64,000 nt of DNA, from NCBI RefSeq assembly GCF_003952485.1, contig NZ_CP034447.1:6958501-7022500 (forward strand), given 5' to 3'. Source of the stretch: Mesorhizobium sp. M1E.F.Ca.ET.045.02.1.1 (GTDB taxonomy: Bacteria > Pseudomonadota > Alphaproteobacteria > Rhizobiales > Rhizobiaceae). Positions 20,644 to 61,511 of this stretch are shown in pieces. Under the pieces are notes generated by a model. That model had not been told where the DNA came from and made no database searches. It was given only the letters and a program-made list of their open reading frames with translations. Position 1 is the stretch's first letter, and the number at the start of each line of letters is the position of its first letter. Position numbers and translations under genes: made by a program.

Positions 20644-21913
20644 TGTTTGGACCGGGGACATCGCGAACAGGTGTGCGAAGACATCGCGAACAGTTTTGCA
20701 TGCTATCGGGCGAGGGCATTGAGGTCGATGGTTTCTATTTTCTGATGTCTGAACCAGGCGTCGAAGACGCCGTCGGTGGCGGTGGGGCGGAAAGCGACGG
20801 ACTTTCCGGCGAAGGCCCGGCACAAGCGTATGGTTCGGCCGAGAATGGAGACGAAGCCGTGCTGCTGAACGCGGCGGATGAGATCGTCCTTGGCATATTC
20901 GAACGGCTCGACTGTTTCGCGATACTGGCGCGGCGAGGCCTGGTAGCGATCGAGCGGCACGCCGCCGCCCAAGGCATCGTGGGGACGCTGGGCGTTGTAG
21001 ACGTGGCGCCACTGGTCGAATGCATCCTGAGCCTCGGCGAGATTGGCGAAGGGCGGTCCCTGCAATGCCTCGGCCTTGAGCGAACGATGGAAGCGCTCGT
21101 CCTTGCCGAGCGTCTGCGGGTGGCAAGGCCTGGAGTGGCTGACGGCGATGCCAATCTCGATCAGCCAGACGGTGAGCAAGGTGAAGTCGTTGCGGCCGCC
21201 ATCGCCCCAAGGCGGACCATTGTCTGTGGCGATGCGCCACGGCAGGCCATAGCGACGGAAGGCGGCGATCAGCCGGGCTTTTACGGTTTCGGTGGTCTGG
21301 TCGGCGCAGGCCGACAGCGCGATCGAGAAGCGCGAATGGTCGTCGAGCACGGTAAGCGGATGCAGCCGGCCGGCGCGCAAGGCAACGTGGCCCTTGAAGT
21401 CCATCTGCCACAGGTGGTTGGGGGCGGCATGCTCGAAGCGAATGAAAGGCTGGGCTCCGCCGCCCAAAGCCCCCAGCTCGATACCGTTGCGGCGCAGGAT
21501 GCCGGTGACCGTCGAGGCCGCCGGCGTGCCGATGCCTTCGCGGGCAAGCACCCGCGCGATCTTGCGCCCACCCCAGGCTGGATGCGCCACACGCACCGAA
21601 ACGGCTGCCGCCTCCACCTCCGGCGCGCTGCGTGCCGGGCTCGACAGTGGTCGCCGAGACTGCTCCGCCAGGCCGGCCGCCCCTTCCATCCGATAGCGCG
21701 AAAGCAACTTGTGGCCACAGGTCCGGCCAATGCCGAAGCGCCGGCACAACGCGCTCACATTGGCGCCAGGCGCCAGCGCCAATCTCACGAACTCTTCTTT
21801 CTGGCTCATCACGCTTCTGGCCTCGAATGGCATCCCGAACCCCCTCGCGCAAAACGCGCAAAACTGTTCGCGATGTCTTCGCACACCTGTTCGCGATGTC
21901 CCCGGTCCAAACA
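20644..21913 (-). mobile_element. IS481-family insertion sequence, intact (1270 bp)
   Basis: The element is bounded by perfect 56-bp terminal inverted repeats (20644-20699 and 21858-21913) beginning TGTTTGGACCGGGGACATCG. Each repeat holds two direct copies of ACATCGCGAACAG, probable transposase-binding sites. CCCTT at 20639-20643 and again at 21914-21918 is a 5-bp target duplication. One transposase gene fills the interior. The identical ends, clean duplication and intact gene indicate a recent, probably active insertion, located 22 bp past the ubiA stop inside a palindromic repeat. Confidence 0.95.
20703..21833 (-). CDS. IS481 family transposase
   Basis: 376-residue DDE transposase. The N-terminal helix-turn-helix is seen in the segment around VSALCRRFGIGRTCGHKLL. 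The integrase core has the catalytic acids in WQMDFKG, IATDNGPPW and LGKDERFHRSL. A C-terminal domain of about 70 residues follows, as usual in this family. ATG 21833 is preceded by GAGGGGG; an alternative start (MSQKEEF) lies eight codons inside. It fills the inverted-repeat-bounded element and reads towards ubiA. No frameshift or stop interrupts it, so it is likely functional. Confidence 0.95.
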   Translation of the reverse strand: MPFEARSVMSQKEEFVRLALAPGANVSALCRRFGIGRTCGHKLLSRYRMEGAAGLAEQSRRPLSSPARSAPEVEAAAVSVRVAHPAWGGRKIARVLAREGIGTPAASTVTGILRRNGIELGALGGGAQPFIRFEHAAPNHLWQMDFKGHVALRAGRLHPLTVLDDHSRFSIALSACADQTTETVKARLIAAFRRYGLPWRIATDNGPPWGDGGRNDFTLLTVWLIEIGIAVSHSRPCHPQTLGKDERFHRSLKAEALQGPPFANLAEAQDAFDQWRHVYNAQRPHDALGGGVPLDRYQASPRQYRETVEPFEYAKDDLIRRVQQHGFVSILGRTIRLCRAFAGKSVAFRPTATDGVFDAWFRHQKIETIDLNALAR

Positions 21914-25412: not shown

Positions 25413-26018
25413 ATGCGTATGCCTTATTTTGACGCATTTCCGGACGGAAGGCTACGGCGAAGTCGCCGAGCCCAACCGTTACACACTTCTCCTGGAATTG
25501 CTCTGGGAATGGTCGGTATCGGCATTTTGGCGACGACCGGGTTGGCGCAAGCTTCGTCCATCGTCGTGCTTGGCGTTGCGACCTCGACGCCATCCGTGGT
25601 CAGGCTGACGGCGATCGAGCCTGGCCCGATCTCCGCTGCCTCGACACCGTCGGTGGTGGCGCTCGGCGATCCAGTACCCGCCGTCACCGACGAGACGGTC
25701 GCGGCGATCCCGGAGAAATCCGGGCATGGCCGCGCGCAGACGCCGATGATCATTCGCGGCGGCATCGTCGGCGGCGCCTTCGCAACGCCCGCGGCGACCG
25801 CGGCTGCCAAGACCACGGCACCGGCTGCCACGACACCGGCAAACGGCGCCGCGCCGGCTGCTGCCACGCCTCCCAACGGCACTGCCACGACGGCCGCCAA
25901 CGGTCAGGCGAAAGCGGCCGACAACCAGGCGGCCGCCAATGCATCGGGCGGCCAATCGCAGCCGCAAGCCAAACCGCAAAACGCCTCGACATTGCCGCCG
26001 GTCGGCAAGGCAATGTAG
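25413..26018 (+). CDS. Hypothetical secreted Ala/Thr/Pro-rich protein with repeat-derived N-terminus
   Basis: 201 residues from ATG 25413, which has GGAG eight bases upstream. The first 32 codons lie within a degenerate RIME-like repeat (25427-25505). The encoded sequence is basic (around RLRRSRRAQPLHTS) and runs into a hydrophobic segment GMVGIGILATTGLAQASSIV, together resembling a signal peptide. The mature part is low-complexity after residue 115, dominated by Ala, Thr, Pro, Asn and Gln, suggesting an extended periplasmic or surface-exposed tail. An alternative start is ATG 25509, directly at the hydrophobic core. Function unknown. Confidence 0.65.
   Translation: MRMPYFDAFPDGRLRRSRRAQPLHTSPGIALGMVGIGILATTGLAQASSIVVLGVATSTPSVVRLTAIEPGPISAASTPSVVALGDPVPAVTDETVAAIPEKSGHGRAQTPMIIRGGIVGGAFATPAATAAAKTTAPAATTPANGAAPAAATPPNGTATTAANGQAKAADNQAAANASGGQSQPQAKPQNASTLPPVGKAM
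25427..25505. repeat. Degenerate RIME-like repeat inside a coding start region
   Basis: Matches the second palindrome of the elements at 19536-19594 and 60834-60891: shared blocks are TTCCGGACGGAA, CCGTTACACACTT and TCCTGGAATTGCTCT. It differs by an insertion in the loop region, around GGCTACGGCGAAGTCGCC. The repeat overlaps the first codons of the secreted-protein gene starting at 25413 and is in frame with it. Confidence 0.75.
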
Positions 26019-26135
26019 GCCGGCCCTCGCGGCGGCCCGGTTGCGTCGGGCGCCAAGCCGAGTGGACTTTTCGTTGCTGTCCGATTTCCGTCATCCGGCT
26101 CGTGCACAACAGGGTGATTTTCAGAGGGGGATTTC

Positions 26136-26525
26136 ATGACGGGTTCGAAAGCAATGATCGTCGCCGGGCTGTTGGCTGCGTCGGCGCTGAATGCGGCCGC
26201 TGCCCAGGCTCAGGACATGCTGGGTTCCTATGTTGCGCGCATTTCCGAACGCGACCATCAAGCCAGCGACGGCTACCCGCTGCGGAGCGCGGCGCAGATG
26301 GTGCGGCAGGACCGGGCCAACTGGCACAAGTTCCGCCGGCGCGACGCCGACGACCAGGGCGATCCATGGTTCCGCGGCAATGATGACCGCGCCCAACTGG
26401 AGCGCATGCTGGAACGCGGCGGCGCGATGAGCAGCGCGACCCGGCGCGCCATCGTCAATGGCGAGCCGCTGATCGAGGTCGACGTCTATCCGGACAGCGT
26501 GCGCGTCAGCATCCTGGAGGACTGA
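26136..26525 (+). CDS. Hypothetical secreted protein (129 aa)
   Basis: 129 residues. The N-terminus MTGSKAMIVAGLLAASALNA followed by AAAQAQDM is a Sec signal peptide with an AQA cleavage site near residue 25. The mature part is hydrophilic and rich in Arg, Asp and Trp, for example RQDRANWHKFRRRDADDQGD, with a short C-terminal segment PLIEVDVYPDSVRVSILED. A strong AGAGGGGG lies ahead of the ATG. No recognised family. It follows another secreted-protein gene by 117 bp on the same strand and is backed by a possible terminator at 26547. Confidence 0.75.
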   Translation: MTGSKAMIVAGLLAASALNAAAAQAQDMLGSYVARISERDHQASDGYPLRSAAQMVRQDRANWHKFRRRDADDQGDPWFRGNDDRAQLERMLERGGAMSSATRRAIVNGEPLIEVDVYPDSVRVSILED

Positions 26526-26546
26526 TAGACAAGGGTTGACGAAAAT

Positions 26547-26574
26547 AGGGCGACGCTCACCGCGCCGCCCTTTG
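26547..26574 (+). terminator. Possible transcription terminator
   Basis: Short inverted repeat AGGGCG (26547-26552) and CGCCCT (26566-26571), with additional GC pairing inside, followed by TTTGTTGTT. It sits 21 bp past the stop of the secreted-protein gene and 23 bp before the stop of the convergent acidic-protein gene. The T-tract is imperfect, so confidence is limited. Confidence 0.4.
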
Positions 26575-26597
26575 TTGTTCAAGCGATGAGAAACGGC

Positions 26598-26942
26598 TCA
26601 GGCCGCTTCTTCCTTGTCGTCATCGTCGGACTCGTCTTCGTCGTCGCCGTCTTCATCCTCGTCATCACCCGAGGCCTTGGCGTCTTCGTCGTCCTCATCC
26701 TCGTCGTCCGACTCGTCCTCGCTCGAGGCAGTGGCTTCCTCATCGGCGTCTTCGTCGTCCTCGTCGTCGCTGTCTTCGTCGCCGGCTTCTTCCTCGTCGC
26801 CTTCGTCCTCATCGTCTTCAGACGGATCGGCGGCTTCGACCGCCGCGGCGGCATGGTCGAGGAGGCTTTCAGAAGCGGGCTCGATACACTCGGCGGCGGC
26901 CGGGGTTTCTTCAGTCAAATCGATGTCGTGAACGGAATTCAT
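26598..26942 (-). CDS. Extremely acidic low-complexity protein (114 aa)
   Basis: 114 residues from an ATG with GGAGG seven bases upstream. The first 40 residues are ordinary (MNSVHDIDLTEETPAAAECI and so on). The last 74 residues are about 70 percent Asp or Glu, with Ser, Gly and Ala and only two Lys, so the chain must be intrinsically disordered with a strongly negative charge. Such tails can bind basic proteins, metal ions or polyamines, or mimic nucleic acid; none of this is shown here. The nucleotide pattern is a run of GAN codons and therefore a low-complexity tract on both strands. It is a single gene between convergent and divergent neighbours. Confidence 0.7.
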   Translation of the reverse strand: MNSVHDIDLTEETPAAAECIEPASESLLDHAAAAVEAADPSEDDEDEGDEEEAGDEDSDDEDDEDADEEATASSEDESDDEDEDDEDAKASGDDEDEDGDDEDESDDDDKEEAA

Positions 26943-27209
26943 GGCATGCCTCCGTGGTTGGGGAACGTCTTAAGGCGCGTCACGCTGAAGTGAATTCAGG
27001 CGACGCGCTTCAAGTCTTTGTTCGATGCATGTCGTTGTTCCAGAATCGCTGAACACTTCTGGACGACATGCATTGGTTCTCCCATGCGGAGGTCATCGTC
27101 ATATGACTGTAAGCCGGCTCCGGCGCATTAAATTTGGGCCATGAAATTGTCGAAGCGCGCCCGCGCCTTATGGGGCGCAGGCAGCTTCGGATCGGCGACT
27201 TTTTGGCCG

Positions 27210-29522
27210 TCAGCCGACGATTTTTGAAAAATCGGCGACCTGGTCGGTGGCGGCGCGGATGCGGGCAAGCAGCGCCAGCCGGTTGGCGCGCACTGCCTGG
27301 TCCTCATCATTCACGAGAACGCCTTCAAAGAATGAATCAACGGGTTCACGCAAAACGCTAAGCGCCAGCATGGCGGCGGAAAAACCTTCGTTTTGAATCG
27401 CTTGGCCGGCTTCCTTTTCAGCCTGATTCACCGCGGCAAACAGCTTCTTTTCCGCGTCCTCGCGGAACAGCGCCGGCTCAACAGTCTCGGCGATCAGCGT
27501 TTTCTTCTTCTCCTCGGCCGCCAGGATGTTGGCGGCGCGTTTGGTGCCGGCGAGCAGGTTCGTGCCGTCCTCGCTGTCGAGGAAGGAGCCCAATGCCTCG
27601 ACACGACGGACGATCTGCAGCAGGTCGTCGGACTGCGGCGTGATGACGGCGTCGATCAGGTCGTACCGCGCGCCCTGGTCACGGAGATAGACCTTCAGGC
27701 GGTCGTGAAAGAAGGCGAGGAGGTCGGATATCTGGCCGGCGCCGCCCGTGAAGTTGGCAAAGGCCTTGGCGAAGATCGAAGTCAGCTCCAGGCGAATGCG
27801 GTTCTCGATCAGTATCCTGACCACACCAAGTGCCGCGCGCCGCAGCGCGAACGGGTCCTTGCTGCCGGTCGGCTTTTCATCGATAGCCCAGAAGCCGGTG
27901 AGCGTGTCGAGCTTGTCCGCGAGCGCCACAGCCACCGAGACCGGATCGGTCGGCACGCGGTCGGAAGGGCCTTGCGGCTTGTAGTGCTCCTCGGCGGCCG
28001 CGGCCACTGACGGATGCTCGCCCTGCAGCAACGCATATTTGCGGCCCATGGCGCCCTGCAGTTCAGGGAACTCGCCGACCACCTCCGTCGGCAAGTCGGC
28101 CTTGGCAAGCACCGCGGCGCGGGTGACAAGCGTGGTAATCTCCCCCCTTGAGGGGGAGATGTCGCCGGAGGCGACAGAGGGGGTCGTCTCGCGTGGAGTA
28201 CCAATGTCTTCTCTCTTCGAAAGGCCAGAATGCGTCGCATCAGCCGAAGCGACCCCCTCTGGCCTGCCGGCCATCTCACCCTCAAGGGGGGAGATCGACT
28301 GCGCCACCGTCGGCGCCAATTCCTCGGCCAGTCGCTTGATCCGCGCGACCCGCTCGCCCTGGGTGCCGAGCTTGGCATGGAAGGTCACGTTGAGATGATC
28401 GAGCCGCGCCATGCGCTGGTCGAGCGGCTTCGTCAAATCCAGGTCGAACTTTGCCGCGGACTCTTTTAGCTGGTCGAGGTCCGGCAGGTCGCCCTGATCG
28501 GTCTTCCAGAAATAGAGCGCGTCGGAGAGGCGCGCCCTGACCACCTTGCCGTTGCCGTATGCGATCTCCTTGCCGCCATCGTTCGCCTCGATGTTTGCGA
28601 CCAGGACGAAGCGATTGGAGAGGTCTTCGGCCGCGCCATGCGGCCGGGTCACAAAACACTTCTGGTTGGCGCGGATGGTGAGGCGGATGACCTCGGCGGG
28701 AATGGTGAGGAAATCATCCTCGAATTCGCCCATCAATACGACCGGCCATTCGACCAGGCCGGAGACTTCCTCGAGCAGACCCTCATCCTCGACAAGGTCG
28801 AGCCCATTGGCGAAGGCGATGTTGCGAGCGTCGTGAAGGATGATCTCCTTGCGCCGGTCGGCATCGAGCACGACCTTGGCCGCCTCGAGCTTTGCGACGT
28901 AGTCCTCGAAGCGGCGCACGGTGATCAAGCCCGGCGCGTGGAAGCGGTGGCCGTAGGTGGCGTTGCCGGAGCGGATGCCGTCGATCTCGAAATCGACCAC
29001 TACCGGCTCTTCGGTCTCCGGGCCGAAGGTGCAGACGATCGATTGCAGCGGCCGCACCCAGCGCAGCGAGCCGGGCTTGGCCGATGCCGGCCCCCAGCGC
29101 ATCGATTTCGGCCAGGGAAAGTTTTTGATGATGCTCGGCACCAGCTCGGCGATGATCTCTTCCGCCGCCCGGCCCGGCTTCGAAATGTGGGCGACATAAA
29201 AGTCGCCTTTCTTCGGATCGGAATGGACATGCGCCTCGGCGATCGATGAAAGGCCGGCCTTGCGCAGAAAACCCTGCACGGCCTGCTCGGGCGCCGTGGT
29301 CGAGGGACCCTTGATCTCCTCGCGAATGTCTTTCGAGCGCGCGGTCAGCCCCCGGATGTCGAGCGCCAGGCGCCGCGGTGTCCAGTATTCGCGCGCCGCC
29401 TCGTAGGTCAGACCCGCCTCGACCAGACCGTCGGTCAGCATCTTTTTCAGATCGCCGGCAGCCTTGCGCTGCATGCGCGCGGGAATCTCTTCCGAGCGGA
29501 GTTCCAGAAGCAAGTCGGGCAT
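27210..29522 (-). CDS. glyS: Glycine--tRNA ligase beta subunit, with in-frame palindromic repeat
   Basis: 770-residue beta subunit of the heterotetrameric glycyl-tRNA synthetase, which works with GlyQ to charge tRNA-Gly. N-terminal [20 protein letters not shown] and the central HD-like region ([10 protein letters not shown], then [27 protein letters not shown]) are typical. The two halves of that region, contiguous in family members such as the E. coli protein, are separated here by about 55 extra residues beginning [18 protein letters not shown]. They are encoded by a palindromic repeat (28138-28295) that keeps the frame open. The remaining length of about 715 fits the family. The C-terminal anticodon-binding region is intact to the stop. 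Confidence 0.96.
28138..28295. repeat. Palindromic repeat element inserted in frame within glyS
   Basis: Terminal arms of 24 bp: 28138-28161 (ATCTCCCCCCTTGAGGGGGA then GATG) and its inverse at 28272-28295, with one mismatch. Each arm is itself palindromic. Adjacent to the arms are the tail blocks GACAGAGGGGGTCG and CGACCCCCTCTG (the latter read from GCGACCCCCTCTGGCC). The same family occurs between genes at 45111-45275, 52013-52172 and 61308-61487. Here it is translated as part of GlyS without a stop. Confidence 0.9.
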
Positions 29523-29535
29523 TGATTAGCTCCTC

Positions 29536-29575
29536 ACCCTCCCCTTGATGGGGAGGGTCGGCGCGTCAGCGCCGG
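29536..29575. repeat. GC-rich hairpin between glyQ and glyS
   Basis: ACCCTCCCC (29536-29544) and GGGGAGGGT (29550-29558) form a 9-bp stem with a TTGAT loop. It is followed by a second small inverted repeat, GGCGCGTCAGCGCC. It resembles half of a rhizobial palindromic unit. It lies 14 bp upstream of the glyS start on the coding strand's leader side, within the 436-bp glyQ-glyS gap, and could fold in the glyQS transcript. Confidence 0.5.
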
Positions 29576-29779
29576 TGTCACGAATGCGCGGGAAATAGCA
29601 ACTCGGCTGGCCGCTGTCACCCCGCAAGCTTTGCCCTGGCCAGCGCCGGTTTCCGGAAATTTTCATCGCCGCTGTCGGGACGGCGCGAGCCCACCCGTCC
29701 TTGGAGCAGAAATTCCCATGAACCGAACGCGGCGCTGAAGCGACCTACGCTCAGGCGGAGAACTATTGGCTGAACGACC

Positions 29780-29962
29780 ATGAAGACGGCATCGAGAACC
29801 CTGCAGATCCTGGCACTGAGCGCCTGCTTCGCCGCCCAGATGCATGGCACGTTCTCGATGCCGGGCGTCAGACAAGCACTGCGCACGATCGACAGCGTAA
29901 GCAGCCAAAGCGTGTTCCCGATCGCTGCCGCTTCCGAAATCGCAAAAACCGTATTGGGTTAA
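29780..29962 (+). CDS. Possible small lipoprotein (60 aa)
   Basis: 60-codon frame starting [20 protein letters not shown]: a basic start, a hydrophobic core, and LSAC matching a lipobox, so the product could be a short lipoprotein. The remaining 40 residues have no recognised features. It occupies the otherwise empty 436-bp gap between glyQ and glyS and ends overlapping the last 4 bp of convergent glyQ. The ribosome site is poor (GGAG about 20 bases upstream), so it may not be expressed. An 89-codon minus-strand frame (29617-29886) in the same place has no better support. Confidence 0.35.
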
Positions 29963-30933
29963 GCCGCCAGACCGCCCGCCTGCGTCTTCAGGAACGCCTC
30001 CCCGCAAGCCTTCGCCAGGTTGCGCACGCGCAGGATGTAGCTCTGGCGCTCGGTGACGGAAATCACGCCGCGCGCGTCGAGCAGGTTGAAGACATGGCTT
30101 GCCTTGATGCACTGGTCGTAGGCCGGGAAGACCATCCGGTGCATCGCCAGATTGTCGTTCGACGCGGGCGCGCCTGCGGCAAGCAGCGCCTTGCATTCGG
30201 TCTCGGCGTCCTCGAAATGCCGAAGCAGCATCGCCGTGTTGGCGAATTCGAAATTGTGGCGCGAATATTCCTGCTCGGCCTGCAGGAAGACGTCGCCATA
30301 GGTGACCTTTTCCGCACCTTCGCGGCCGTTGAAGTTCAAGTCGTAGACATTGTCGACGCCCTGCACATACATGGCGAGCCGCTCCAGCCCATAGGTGAGC
30401 TCGCCCGCCACCGGCGCGCATTCGATGCCGCAGACCTGCTGGAAATAGGTGAACTGAGAGACTTCCATGCCGTCGCACCAGCACTCCCAGCCGAGGCCCC
30501 AGGCGCCGAGCGTCGGGCTTTCCCAATCGTCCTCGACGAAGCGGATGTCGTGCAGCAGCAGATCGACGCCGATCGCCTCGAGCGAGCCGAGATAGAGTTC
30601 CTGCAGGTTCGGCGGATTCGGCTTCAAGATCACCTGATACTGATAGTAGTGCTGCAGCCGGTTCGGGTTCTCGCCGTAGCGGCCGTCCTTCGGGCGGCGC
30701 GACGGCTGCACGTAAGCGGCATTCCAGCGACGCGGACCGAGTGCGCGCAAAGTGGTTGCCGGGTGGAAGGTACCGGCGCCGACTTCCATGTCGTAGGGCT
30801 GCAGGATGACGCAGCCATAGTCGGCCCAGTAATTGTGCAGGGTCAGGATCAGCCCCTGGAAGGAGCGGCTGGGATGCATATGGGCAGGAATGTCGATGGT
30901 CACGGCGGCCTCGGAAAGCGCGGGATTGGGCAT
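29959..30933 (-). CDS. glyQ: Glycine--tRNA ligase alpha subunit
   Basis: 324-residue catalytic subunit. Class II synthetase motifs are clear: [20 protein letters not shown] near residue 24, [20 protein letters not shown] near 66 with the motif 2 arginines, and [13 protein letters not shown] near 158. [20 protein letters not shown] near 176 carries motif 3. It forms the alpha2beta2 enzyme with GlyS, encoded 436 bp downstream on the same strand. The C-terminal segment [20 protein letters not shown] is also typical. Length slightly above the usual 300 because of an N-terminal stretch of about 20 residues; a start at the internal Met (residue 19) is possible. Confidence 0.97.
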
Positions 30934-31072
30934 TCCCTAGTTGCCGGGCCGGCGAGCGTCAAGGCAGGGCGCCGCATCATGGAGAGTTGAACGCTTTGCC
31001 GGCGGCTGGCCCATTGCCGGCCGCTCAGGCTGGCCGTTTGCTCGCCTGAGCCGCAACGACAAAGGTTCCGCC

Positions 31073-45110: not shown

Positions 45111-45275
45111 ATCTCCCCCCTTGAGGGGGAGATGGCCGGCAGGCAGAGGGGGTCGCCTCGCGAAGAGCGCCAACCTCTTTTTTCTTTCAATACGGCATTT
45201 GCACCAGTAGAGCGCTGCGTCAGCGGAGGCGACCCCCTCTGTCGCCTTCGGCGACATCTCCCCTCGAGGGGAGAT
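45111..45275. repeat. Palindromic repeat element between rnhB and the atp operon
   Basis: Left arm at 45111-45134 (ATCTCCCCCCTTGAGGGGGA then GATG) is identical to the left arm of the element inside glyS. The right arm at 45255-45275 (CATCTCCCCTCGAGGGGAGA then T) is its inverse. Tail blocks GGCCGGCAGGCAGAGGGGG (left) and GCGACCCCCTCTGTCGCC (right) are of two different types, so the unit is a mosaic. Intervening sequence is not conserved with the other copies. Confidence 0.9.
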
Positions 45276-45289
45276 TATCTCCGCCACAA

Positions 45290-45322
45290 AAAAAGCCGCC
45301 GGGTTGCCCAGGCGGCTTTTTG
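45290..45322 (-). terminator. Rho-independent terminator of the F0 ATP synthase operon
   Basis: AAAGCCGCC (45292-45300) and GGCGGCTTT (45311-45319) form a 9-bp GC-rich stem with the loop GGGTTGCCCA. On the minus strand the stem is followed by a T-run (the complement of AAAAAAAGC at 45287 onward). It lies 21 bp downstream of the atpF stop. A T-run on the plus side also exists, so it may act for both strands. Confidence 0.85.
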
Positions 45323-52012: not shown

Positions 52013-52172
52013 ACACCCCCCTCTGTCCTGCCGGACATCTCCCCCGCAAGGGGGGAGATTGGATTTCGCTTATGCTTTCGCCAATCTCCAACGTTGCAGG
52101 ACGAGCGCCGTCAGCAGAGCTGCTGATCTCCCCCCTTGCGGGGAGATGTCCGGCAGGACAGAAGGGGGTGCT
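52013..52172. repeat. Palindromic repeat element between LysR and der
   Basis: The arms at 52036-52059 (CATCTCCCCCGCAAGGGGGG then AGAT) and 52126-52148 (ATCTCCCCCCTTGCGGGGAG then ATG) are inverted copies. Outer tails CTCTGTCCTGCCGGA and TCCGGCAGGACAG are also inverted, followed by CACCCCC against GGGGGTG. It fills most of the 296-bp gap. Same family as the elements at 28138 (glyS), 45111 and 61308, but here both tails are of the GGCAGGACAG type. Confidence 0.88.
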
Positions 52173-61307: not shown

Positions 61308-61487
61308 ATCTCCCCCCTCGAGGGGGGAGATGCCCGGCAGGGCAGAGGGGGGGGTGCTGTCCCTCCGGCCTCTCAACCGTTCACTGCCGCGCACCGAAAC
61401 AGGTTCGCGCTGGGGCAGACCGACCAGCCTCGCGTTCCTTCACACCCCCTCTGGCCTGCCGGCCATCTCCCCCCGCAAGGGGGAGAT
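61308..61487. repeat. Palindromic repeat element between DUF488 and the ArsC-like gene
   Basis: Left arm 61308-61332 (ATCTCCCCCCTCGAGGGGGG then AGATG) and right arm 61464-61487 (CATCTCCCCCCGCAAGGGGG then AGAT) are inverted. Tails CCCGGCAGGGCAGAGGGGGG and CACCCCCTCTGGCCTGCCGG pair as well. It takes most of the 251-bp gap between convergent genes. Fourth copy of the family in this window. Confidence 0.88.
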
Positions 61488-61511
61488 TGGCAGCTTCGCC
61501 GTGCCGCTACC

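Follow-up and report, generated by a model that had tools for sequence, protein, structure and literature searches.

Results

The window, by which we mean the whole stretch of 64,000 nucleotides that was analysed, encodes glyS, the gene for the beta subunit of glycyl-tRNA synthetase in a species of Mesorhizobium, and upstream of it a 324-aa ORF that is probably GlyQ, judging from its sequence (Table 1). GlyS is presumably essential in this organism, since its genome has no match to the dimeric glycyl-tRNA synthetase (TIGR00389). An earlier note on this DNA had described a palindromic element of roughly 158 bp with 24-bp terminal inverted repeats lying within glyS and leaving its reading frame open. 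Each of these particulars held: the core is exactly 158 nt and runs ATCTCC...GGAGAT, 23 of its 24 terminal positions pair, and the gene is a single minus-strand ORF of 770 aa that retains both of its Pfam domains, PF02092 and PF05746. The peptide does begin with SISPLEGEM, whereas the claimed gain of about 55 residues was slightly too high, as 54 are read and the net gain is 53 (770 vs 717 aa). The note was mistaken in placing the flanking GlyS segments directly next to each other in family members, as a few residues (as in APVVGADRALVARAAV) separate them in empty relatives and are altered here.

Table 1. Position of glyS, the element within it and related repeats, in window coordinates
Feature	Position	Strand	Basis
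glyS, glycyl-tRNA synthetase beta subunit, 770 aa including the insert	27210..29522	-	ORF; Pfam PF02092 586 bits, PF05746 36 bits
Core of the palindromic repeat at GlyS site B, 158 nt	28138..28295	.	Exact ends, 23/24 terminal pairing; alignment of 38 own-genome copies
Terminal inverted repeat, first arm	28138..28161	+	
Terminal inverted repeat, second arm, 1 mismatch	28272..28295	-	
Insert codons, read as 54 residues (SISPLEGEM...DISPSRGEI) for a net gain of 53	28137..28298	-	Translation vs empty 717-aa GlyS
glyQ-like alpha subunit, 324-aa ORF, upstream of glyS, without insert	29959..30933	-	ORF
Further family copy, ends approximate	45120..45290	.	
Other repeat-superfamily copy; its two 41-nt arms are 88% complementary	52014..52170	.	
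Further family copy, ends approximate	61323..61502	.	

The coding-strand RNA of the glyS element is predicted to fold with -104.4 kcal/mol (z -9.7), a value equalled by none of 200 shuffles. The insert has a hydrophobic fraction of 0.17, compared to 0.32 in the remaining GlyS, which aligns by sequence to the homologous solved GlyRS beta structure 7yse. The inserted loop is probably located on the surface and exposed, an idea that fits the positions of length variation, the linker location of the corresponding insert in the pyruvate dehydrogenase (PDH) E2 subunit described below, and the low hydrophobicity. It is presumably translated as well, because the reading frame is kept in an essential gene. 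A self-splicing intron was rejected, as a cmscan of positions 26000-31000 found no catalytic RNA fold; the same scan found no Rfam family for the element and no intron or ribozyme match, and its one weak sRNA match lies outside glyS. An intein was likewise rejected, as the Pfam scan of GlyS returned PF02092 and PF05746 only. To our knowledge, 54 residues would also be shorter than any intein.

The insert is repeat-derived, as the note had proposed, and its family is abundant in the genome of origin. The glyS element DNA gave 87 match rows in the 7.35 Mb of this genome (40 of 180 candidates were scored, and many places were counted on both strands), and 38 unique copies could be aligned, glyS included. 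These copies are all built as mosaics: the repeat AATCTCCCCCCTTGAGGGGGAGATG lies outermost, followed by an inner hairpin of one of several kinds, mostly 12 or 15 nt long, then by a middle that varies, after which the mirror image follows. The ends of the element are ATCTCCCCC...GGGGGAGAT, also given as CCAATCTCCCCC ends, and coding copies measure 104-167 nt. Among MITE traits, the element possesses terminal inverted repeats and contains no transposase, 158 nt being too short for such a gene. It may conceivably be RIME1. Its arms are also present on plasmids of Rhizobium, Sinorhizobium, Shinella, Neorhizobium and Phyllobacterium (184 records, none with a single place covering 80% of the query), and DNA of the GlyS site-C element defined below matches 12 of 150 genomes of the order, mostly through the arms.

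The earlier note had placed the other copies within the window only between genes. Going by a check for crossing ORFs, this is probably so; in the genome as a whole, the family is not confined to intergenic positions. In the genome of origin, 59 loci outside glyS (38 unique copies) were searched for ORFs that run across the element; among the ten crossing ORFs that were read and scanned with Pfam, nine had no family and one had a GNAT domain downstream of the element. A further 13 loci, at which long ORFs encode arm peptides, were assessed by visual inspection only, and more in-gene cases may have been missed. Phase was also determined for the remaining copies. From 107 loci, removal of 12 without a core and 2 in glyS and the merging of duplicates left 91 copies (49 in phase), or 87 once 4 GNAT copies were dropped. 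Among these 87, from six genomes, 45 have a length that keeps the phase (expected 29; naive p 0.0003), and with one vote per cluster of middles the count is 17 of 31 (p 0.011). Stops occupy 0.7% of the middle codons of in-phase copies in that frame, compared to 1.4% and 3.2% in the other two. For the genome of origin alone, alignment gives 25 of 37 copies in phase, or 22 of 37 at the same loci with stricter ends. This excess is suggestive of a family that may pass through genes as a whole, and the test is weakened by the shared ancestry of the copies and by their intergenic location being presumed, rather than proven copy by copy. All 52 extracted coding inserts have an in-phase length, which follows from their having been found as open reads.

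GlyS sequences of 61 genus-level and 6 order-level genomes were extracted and aligned (67 in total). The insert-free protein has 717 aa (e.g. in genome G047), and inserts or scars occur in 25 of the 59 genus genomes with an intact glyS, the other 34 having neither insert nor remnant. Repeat-derived inserts occupy three positions, numbered on the 717-aa form: site A, after residue 294, with 5 full inserts and 1 remnant; site B, after residue 406, which holds the insert of the window, with 17 full inserts and 1 remnant; and site C, after residue 578, with 9 full inserts, 4 remnants and, in G043, 1 insert from another palindromic family (HLLPAGEK...SPLGEKVAAKRPDEG) that takes the place of the usual element (L045:3520-3663). 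Every insert in an intact glyS is in frame and stop-free, the full ones are all read in one phase as ISPLEGEM...ISPSRGEI, and wherever lengths vary the difference is a whole number of codons. Comparison of empty and filled sites revealed no clean target-site duplication; at site B the net gain exceeds the core by 1 nt, and codons flanking sites A and C have changed too. Remnants at site C in G015, G022 and G058 match the expected product of a deletion between two ATCTCCCCC direct repeats that keeps the frame, and those of G003 and G046 look like older, diverged scars.

On a gene tree for which the insert columns were removed, presence of the inserts requires at least 5 (A), 11 (B) and 5 (C) changes; this was a quick build in which 26 of the 62 inner branches are open, and recombination is likely. 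Both tree and counts exclude G023, where a contig ends, and G059, where the frame jumps. Given this patchy presence, the inserts would seem either to come and go or to move between strains by recombination. The insert appears confined to this lineage as far as seen. When the insert region of GlyS was compared with 5.8 billion proteins (423-1347 aa), it gave 218 matches, and the 120 listed were all GlyS, from Mesorhizobium wherever the organism was named; none of the six order-level GlyS that were aligned (among 39 order-level matches) has an insert. An assembly artefact was rejected as its source, as 17 of 61 genus genomes, among them some that consist of a single contig, have the insert at this very site, and dozens of named isolates carry it too. 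GlyS also varies after residue 539 of the 717-aa form, where 35 of the 67 aligned proteins have 8-68 extra residues that do not resemble the repeats; this is a natural variable loop.

GlyS is by no means the only protein to carry the element. In the GNAT acetyltransferase gene of the genome of origin (G000:C1:3222900-3223634; L123, L347), the element lies in frame between the start and the Pfam GNAT domain downstream. Relatives of this gene were found in all 41 genus genomes searched. Among the 22 loci that were read, the genome of origin included (L348-L368), 13 have the present family in frame, 3 have another palindromic family that resembles the G043 GlyS insert, 5 are empty and 1 (L363) has no usable ORF. 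The empty loci contain frames of 192-194 aa with the same start and downstream sequence as the filled ones. Translation could conceivably begin downstream of the element, because the site is near the N terminus, yet the start codon context is common to the empty and filled forms. A shorter insert query against proteins of 221-702 aa gave 182 matches, and many of the 120 listed are PDH E2, where the lipoyl domain precedes or follows the element and the E3-binding domain lies on its other side. Conserved domains flank the element on both sides in an acyl-CoA carboxylase alpha chain, in hydantoinase B and in dimethylglycine dehydrogenase, and in genus genomes it was found in both halves of 5-oxoprolinase. 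Less clear host cases include precorrin-3B synthase and uracil-DNA glycosylase, and in two IleS records, which are fragments, conserved sequence adjoins the element on just one side.

In UvrD, the element lies between DEYQDTN and VGDDDQ (motifs II/III) in 6 of 20 loci read in genus genomes. Other species have in this loop a second palindromic family, SPLEGEVPAKRAEG...PPLKGEG, which the UvrD of the genome of origin carries as well (G000:C1:4458326-4458502; L210:1727-1903, minus) and which gives 65 match rows in that genome, mostly through arms common with the first family. A third insert in the loop is a AEGRKPDRASEPLRGPRGG stretch that may or may not be a repeat. The UvrD loop thus holds different inserts depending on the species (L160-L179, L281-L283), and so it is protein sites, and not merely one gene, that are reused. 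In G001 (L228), the UvrD insert contains a long proline run (poly-C) followed by glycines, probably an assembly artefact at the hairpin.

A few host genes depart from an open reading. The element-bearing E2 and 5-oxoprolinase ORFs of G030 (L149, L274) are broken in the left arm, through sequencing error or real decay, and this genome also has a second E2-like place. In G059, glyS lacks the element and has a frame jump, which looks like an assembly fault because a contig end fuses 5-oxoprolinase to GlyS at the repeat. In a Hyphomicrobiales MAG (L333), the GlyS reading departs from the family shortly past the insert. All three exceptions look like assembly trouble at hairpins, with true decay being possible.

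The site-C form of the element deserves separate mention. Its 47-residue peptide gave 46 rows with E < 1e-10, as read from the listing, in the 61 genus genomes: 7 in GlyS, 25 in E2, 6 in 5-oxoprolinase (including one chimeric contig end and one broken frame), 7 antisense in UvrD and 1, L279, in a different ORF, all assigned from coordinates or sequence. When 84,980 species were scanned with an exact DNA pattern of its compact middle, this matched 23 times in 21 genomes, with 21 matches in records named Mesorhizobium, 1 in the isolate 'Bacterium M00.F' and 1 in a Hyphomicrobiales MAG. All 23 are in frame within ORFs, comprising 13 in GlyS (12 at site C and 1 at site A, two of the 13 having been assigned by reading the context rather than by the script motif), 6 in E2 and 4 in 5-oxoprolinase; the pattern was derived from coding copies and some of the genomes are among those already sampled, so the sample is not independent, although the DNA pattern itself does not favour genes. 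GlyS site-C and E2 copies reach 97.6% DNA identity, which is above the same-gene means of 0.86-0.87, in a comparison whose pattern-based extraction missed some inserts (15 of the 17 at site B were included). We entertain, tentatively and with some doubt, the idea that Mesorhizobium harbors an element subfamily specialised to life within genes, which would spread from coding copy to coding copy with almost no intergenic copies, with arms tuned to be stop-free in either orientation and tolerated, and that several families share sites, such that proteins like GlyS, UvrD and GNAT would carry docking loops for selfish DNA.

Selection upon the inserts was assessed separately for arms and middles, using 16 of the 17 site-B sequences (G026, which has another left hairpin, was left out). 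The site-B middle has a pN/pS of 0.99 (bootstrap 0.77-1.38, 16 sequences), compared to 0.13 for the remaining GlyS, and the middles elsewhere give 0.93 (E2), 0.62 (site C) and 0.63 (UvrD). As the latter two values are below neutrality, weak constraint upon them is possible. These figures replace a pooled whole-insert pN/pS of 0.77, alongside a value of 0.87 for 23 further open copies in phase, which include the GNAT copy. The site-B arms have a pS of only 0.105 and a pN of 0.003, whereas pS is 0.40-0.47 in the codons beside the insert and 0.40 in GlyS. Arm and middle pS are 0.142 and 0.184 at site C, 0.200 and 0.166 in E2, and 0.089 and 0.081 in UvrD, and thus the contrast is clear at site B only. 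The site-B arms are held at the level of the DNA, either because other copies convert them or because the hairpin is under selection. In the insert of the window and its orthologous inserts, the two arms (28138-28161 and 28272-28295) have about one quarter of the synonymous divergence of the adjacent codons. A recent spread of the site-B allele together with its flanks was rejected as the cause of their uniformity, as synonymous divergence is normal in the codons beside them. Averaged by host, arm pairing amounts to 0.89-0.98 for coding copies vs 0.87 in 91 other copies (4 of them GNAT).

Discussion

The current study indicates that the palindrome in glyS is an in-frame, repeat-derived insertion and that, judging from the genomes compared, such insertions extend far beyond one gene within the genus. 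Very probably, the insert is a non-autonomous palindromic mobile element that is translated as a probably disordered loop and carried as a near-neutral passenger. The glyS insert would be one copy of a MITE-like double-hairpin element that is widespread in rhizobia and most likely moved by a transposase acting in trans. Both strands of its arms are free of stops in one shared phase, which the commonest lengths preserve, so that a copy that lands in phase within a loop, linker or terminus would add a translated, hydrophilic and probably disordered stretch of ~35-56 residues, leaving a protein that survives and keeps working. After insertion, only whole-codon changes would accumulate, the middle would drift and near-neutral passengers would persist, while in-frame deletion between the repeated ATCTCCCCC motifs would shorten some copies to scars of ~15 residues. 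The insert is presumably harmless to its hosts. Several findings sit less comfortably with this account: no clear target-site duplication was seen, the site-C and UvrD middles have pN/pS values below neutrality, the E2 and 5-oxoprolinase frames of G030 and the GlyS readings of G059 and L333 are irregular, and the site-B arms are more conserved than would be expected of a pure passenger.

Such conservation might be taken as a sign of recruitment, in which the peptide would provide GlyS, as well as E2 and UvrD, with a selected function, such as a binding loop or a regulatory surface. Retention of the insert in many species, the near lack of amino-acid change in the site-B arms (pN 0.003) and the pN/pS of 0.62-0.63 in the site-C and UvrD middles are all in line with this. 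However, the arms that hardly change in amino acids are equally conserved at synonymous sites (pS 0.105 vs 0.40 in GlyS), which points to constraint upon the DNA rather than the peptide, and the site-B and E2 middles evolve with pN/pS of 0.99 and 0.93. Furthermore, 34 of 59 genomes with intact glyS have no insert or remnant, the distribution on the tree is patchy, with at least 11 changes at site B, and unrelated proteins contain the same peptide. We consider recruitment improbable. It is less probable still that the peptide is never made, with the very stable RNA hairpin being removed from the mRNA either by intron-like excision or by RNase III cutting, as in rRNA intervening sequences. Each intact glyS insert maintains its frame and stays free of stops, even where lengths vary by entire codons, positions 26000-31000 match no Rfam intron or ribozyme, and cutting without rejoining would presumably destroy an essential message.

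Alternatively, the element may be kept for its nucleic-acid structure, with selection on a DNA or RNA hairpin, or else gene conversion among the many copies, maintaining uniform arms and the peptide arising as a by-product. The low arm pS beside ordinary divergence in adjacent codons and the slightly better arm pairing of coding copies both agree with this, but the test cannot separate selection from gene conversion, and in E2 and UvrD the arms are no more conserved than the middles at synonymous sites (0.200 vs 0.166 and 0.089 vs 0.081). As a principal explanation we regard it as unlikely, albeit worth serious consideration, and it is compatible with a translated near-neutral passenger rather than exclusive of it. 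The passenger reading itself has close precedent. As described in PMC3767692 and PMC2229807, the RPE and WPE of Rickettsia and Wolbachia are palindromic repeats of ~100-150 nt with terminal inverted repeats, present in many copies, some of them in frame in conserved working genes, and their sites are common to orthologues and targeted by different element families. The present element resembles these in its 158-nt core, its 23/24 terminal pairing, its 38 own-genome copies and its in-frame positions in conserved genes (GlyS at three sites, GNAT, E2, UvrD and 5-oxoprolinase), the products of which are presumably functional. It differs in residing in a rhizobium with a large genome of ~7.3 Mb, rather than a reduced intracellular one, in its GC-rich arms and in having one subfamily found in genes only. 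The parallel to Rickettsia that had been drawn in the earlier note is a good one with regard to architecture and behaviour; the GC-rich arms would make sequence kinship to RPE or WPE unlikely. The element works like the Rickettsia palindromic elements, and we do not claim membership in the RPE family.

The nearest prior report is that of in-gene REPs in free-living bacteria (PMC3733652), which are shorter. That study describes REPs of 20-40 bp, often as dimers or clusters, inside ORFs of several free-living bacteria, with UvrD/REP helicase and tRNA synthetases among the hosts; a single gene may take them at several sites, and more than half of the inserts are dimers or groups coding for 20-30 residues. 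It also surveys Bradyrhizobium REPs and defines a REP by a GTAG/CGTC tetranucleotide at one end, and its section on in-gene REPs names no Mesorhizobium case. Unlike such REPs, the present element ends in ATCTCCCCC...GGGGGAGAT, forms a double hairpin and has coding copies of 104-167 nt, which places it outside that definition. The rhizobial palindromes covered in PMC2573895 (RIMEs, AB and C palindromes, and Sm-repeats) are described there as intergenic. They are similarly repeated palindromes of rhizobia, and the arms studied here occur on rhizobial plasmids, but our copies include ones within genes. Small non-autonomous repeats with ORFs that are sometimes fused in frame to genes are further described for ERIC/RU, Correia/NEMIS and QMITE (PMC2759123, PMC2229807, PMC5896051). 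For enterobacterial RU, Delihas (PMC2759123) states that none lie within conserved domains of superfamily proteins, whereas the inserts in GlyS, UvrD and E2 are located within or between domains. Palindromic repeats in coding regions of P. aeruginosa are claimed in PMC4496055, and a 2024 review of MITEs (PMC10969869) portrays RPEs as unusual in their frequency and deems a similar mechanism in other prokaryotes 'conceivable'. The literature found by title, a search with most subscription papers outside its scope, contained no in-gene palindromic elements of Mesorhizobium or other rhizobia.

Palindromic elements that sit in frame and reach this size are known above all from Rickettsia and Wolbachia, and here long ones are common in a culturable genus with large genomes. 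The host enzymes include an aminoacyl-tRNA synthetase, PDH E2, a helicase and an acetyltransferase, and close relatives offer filled, empty and scarred sites. The mode of movement, the cost to the enzymes and any possible usefulness therefore become directly testable.

Two further features of the window were recorded. Just downstream of glyS, positions 26912-27083 on the minus strand have a weak Rfam match to the Brucella sRNA BASRCI27 (31.6 bits against a gathering score of 59.8, E 0.00039). Further away, 20644-20699 and 21858-21913 form perfect 56-nt inverted repeats, 1158 nt apart, that resemble the ends of an insertion sequence.
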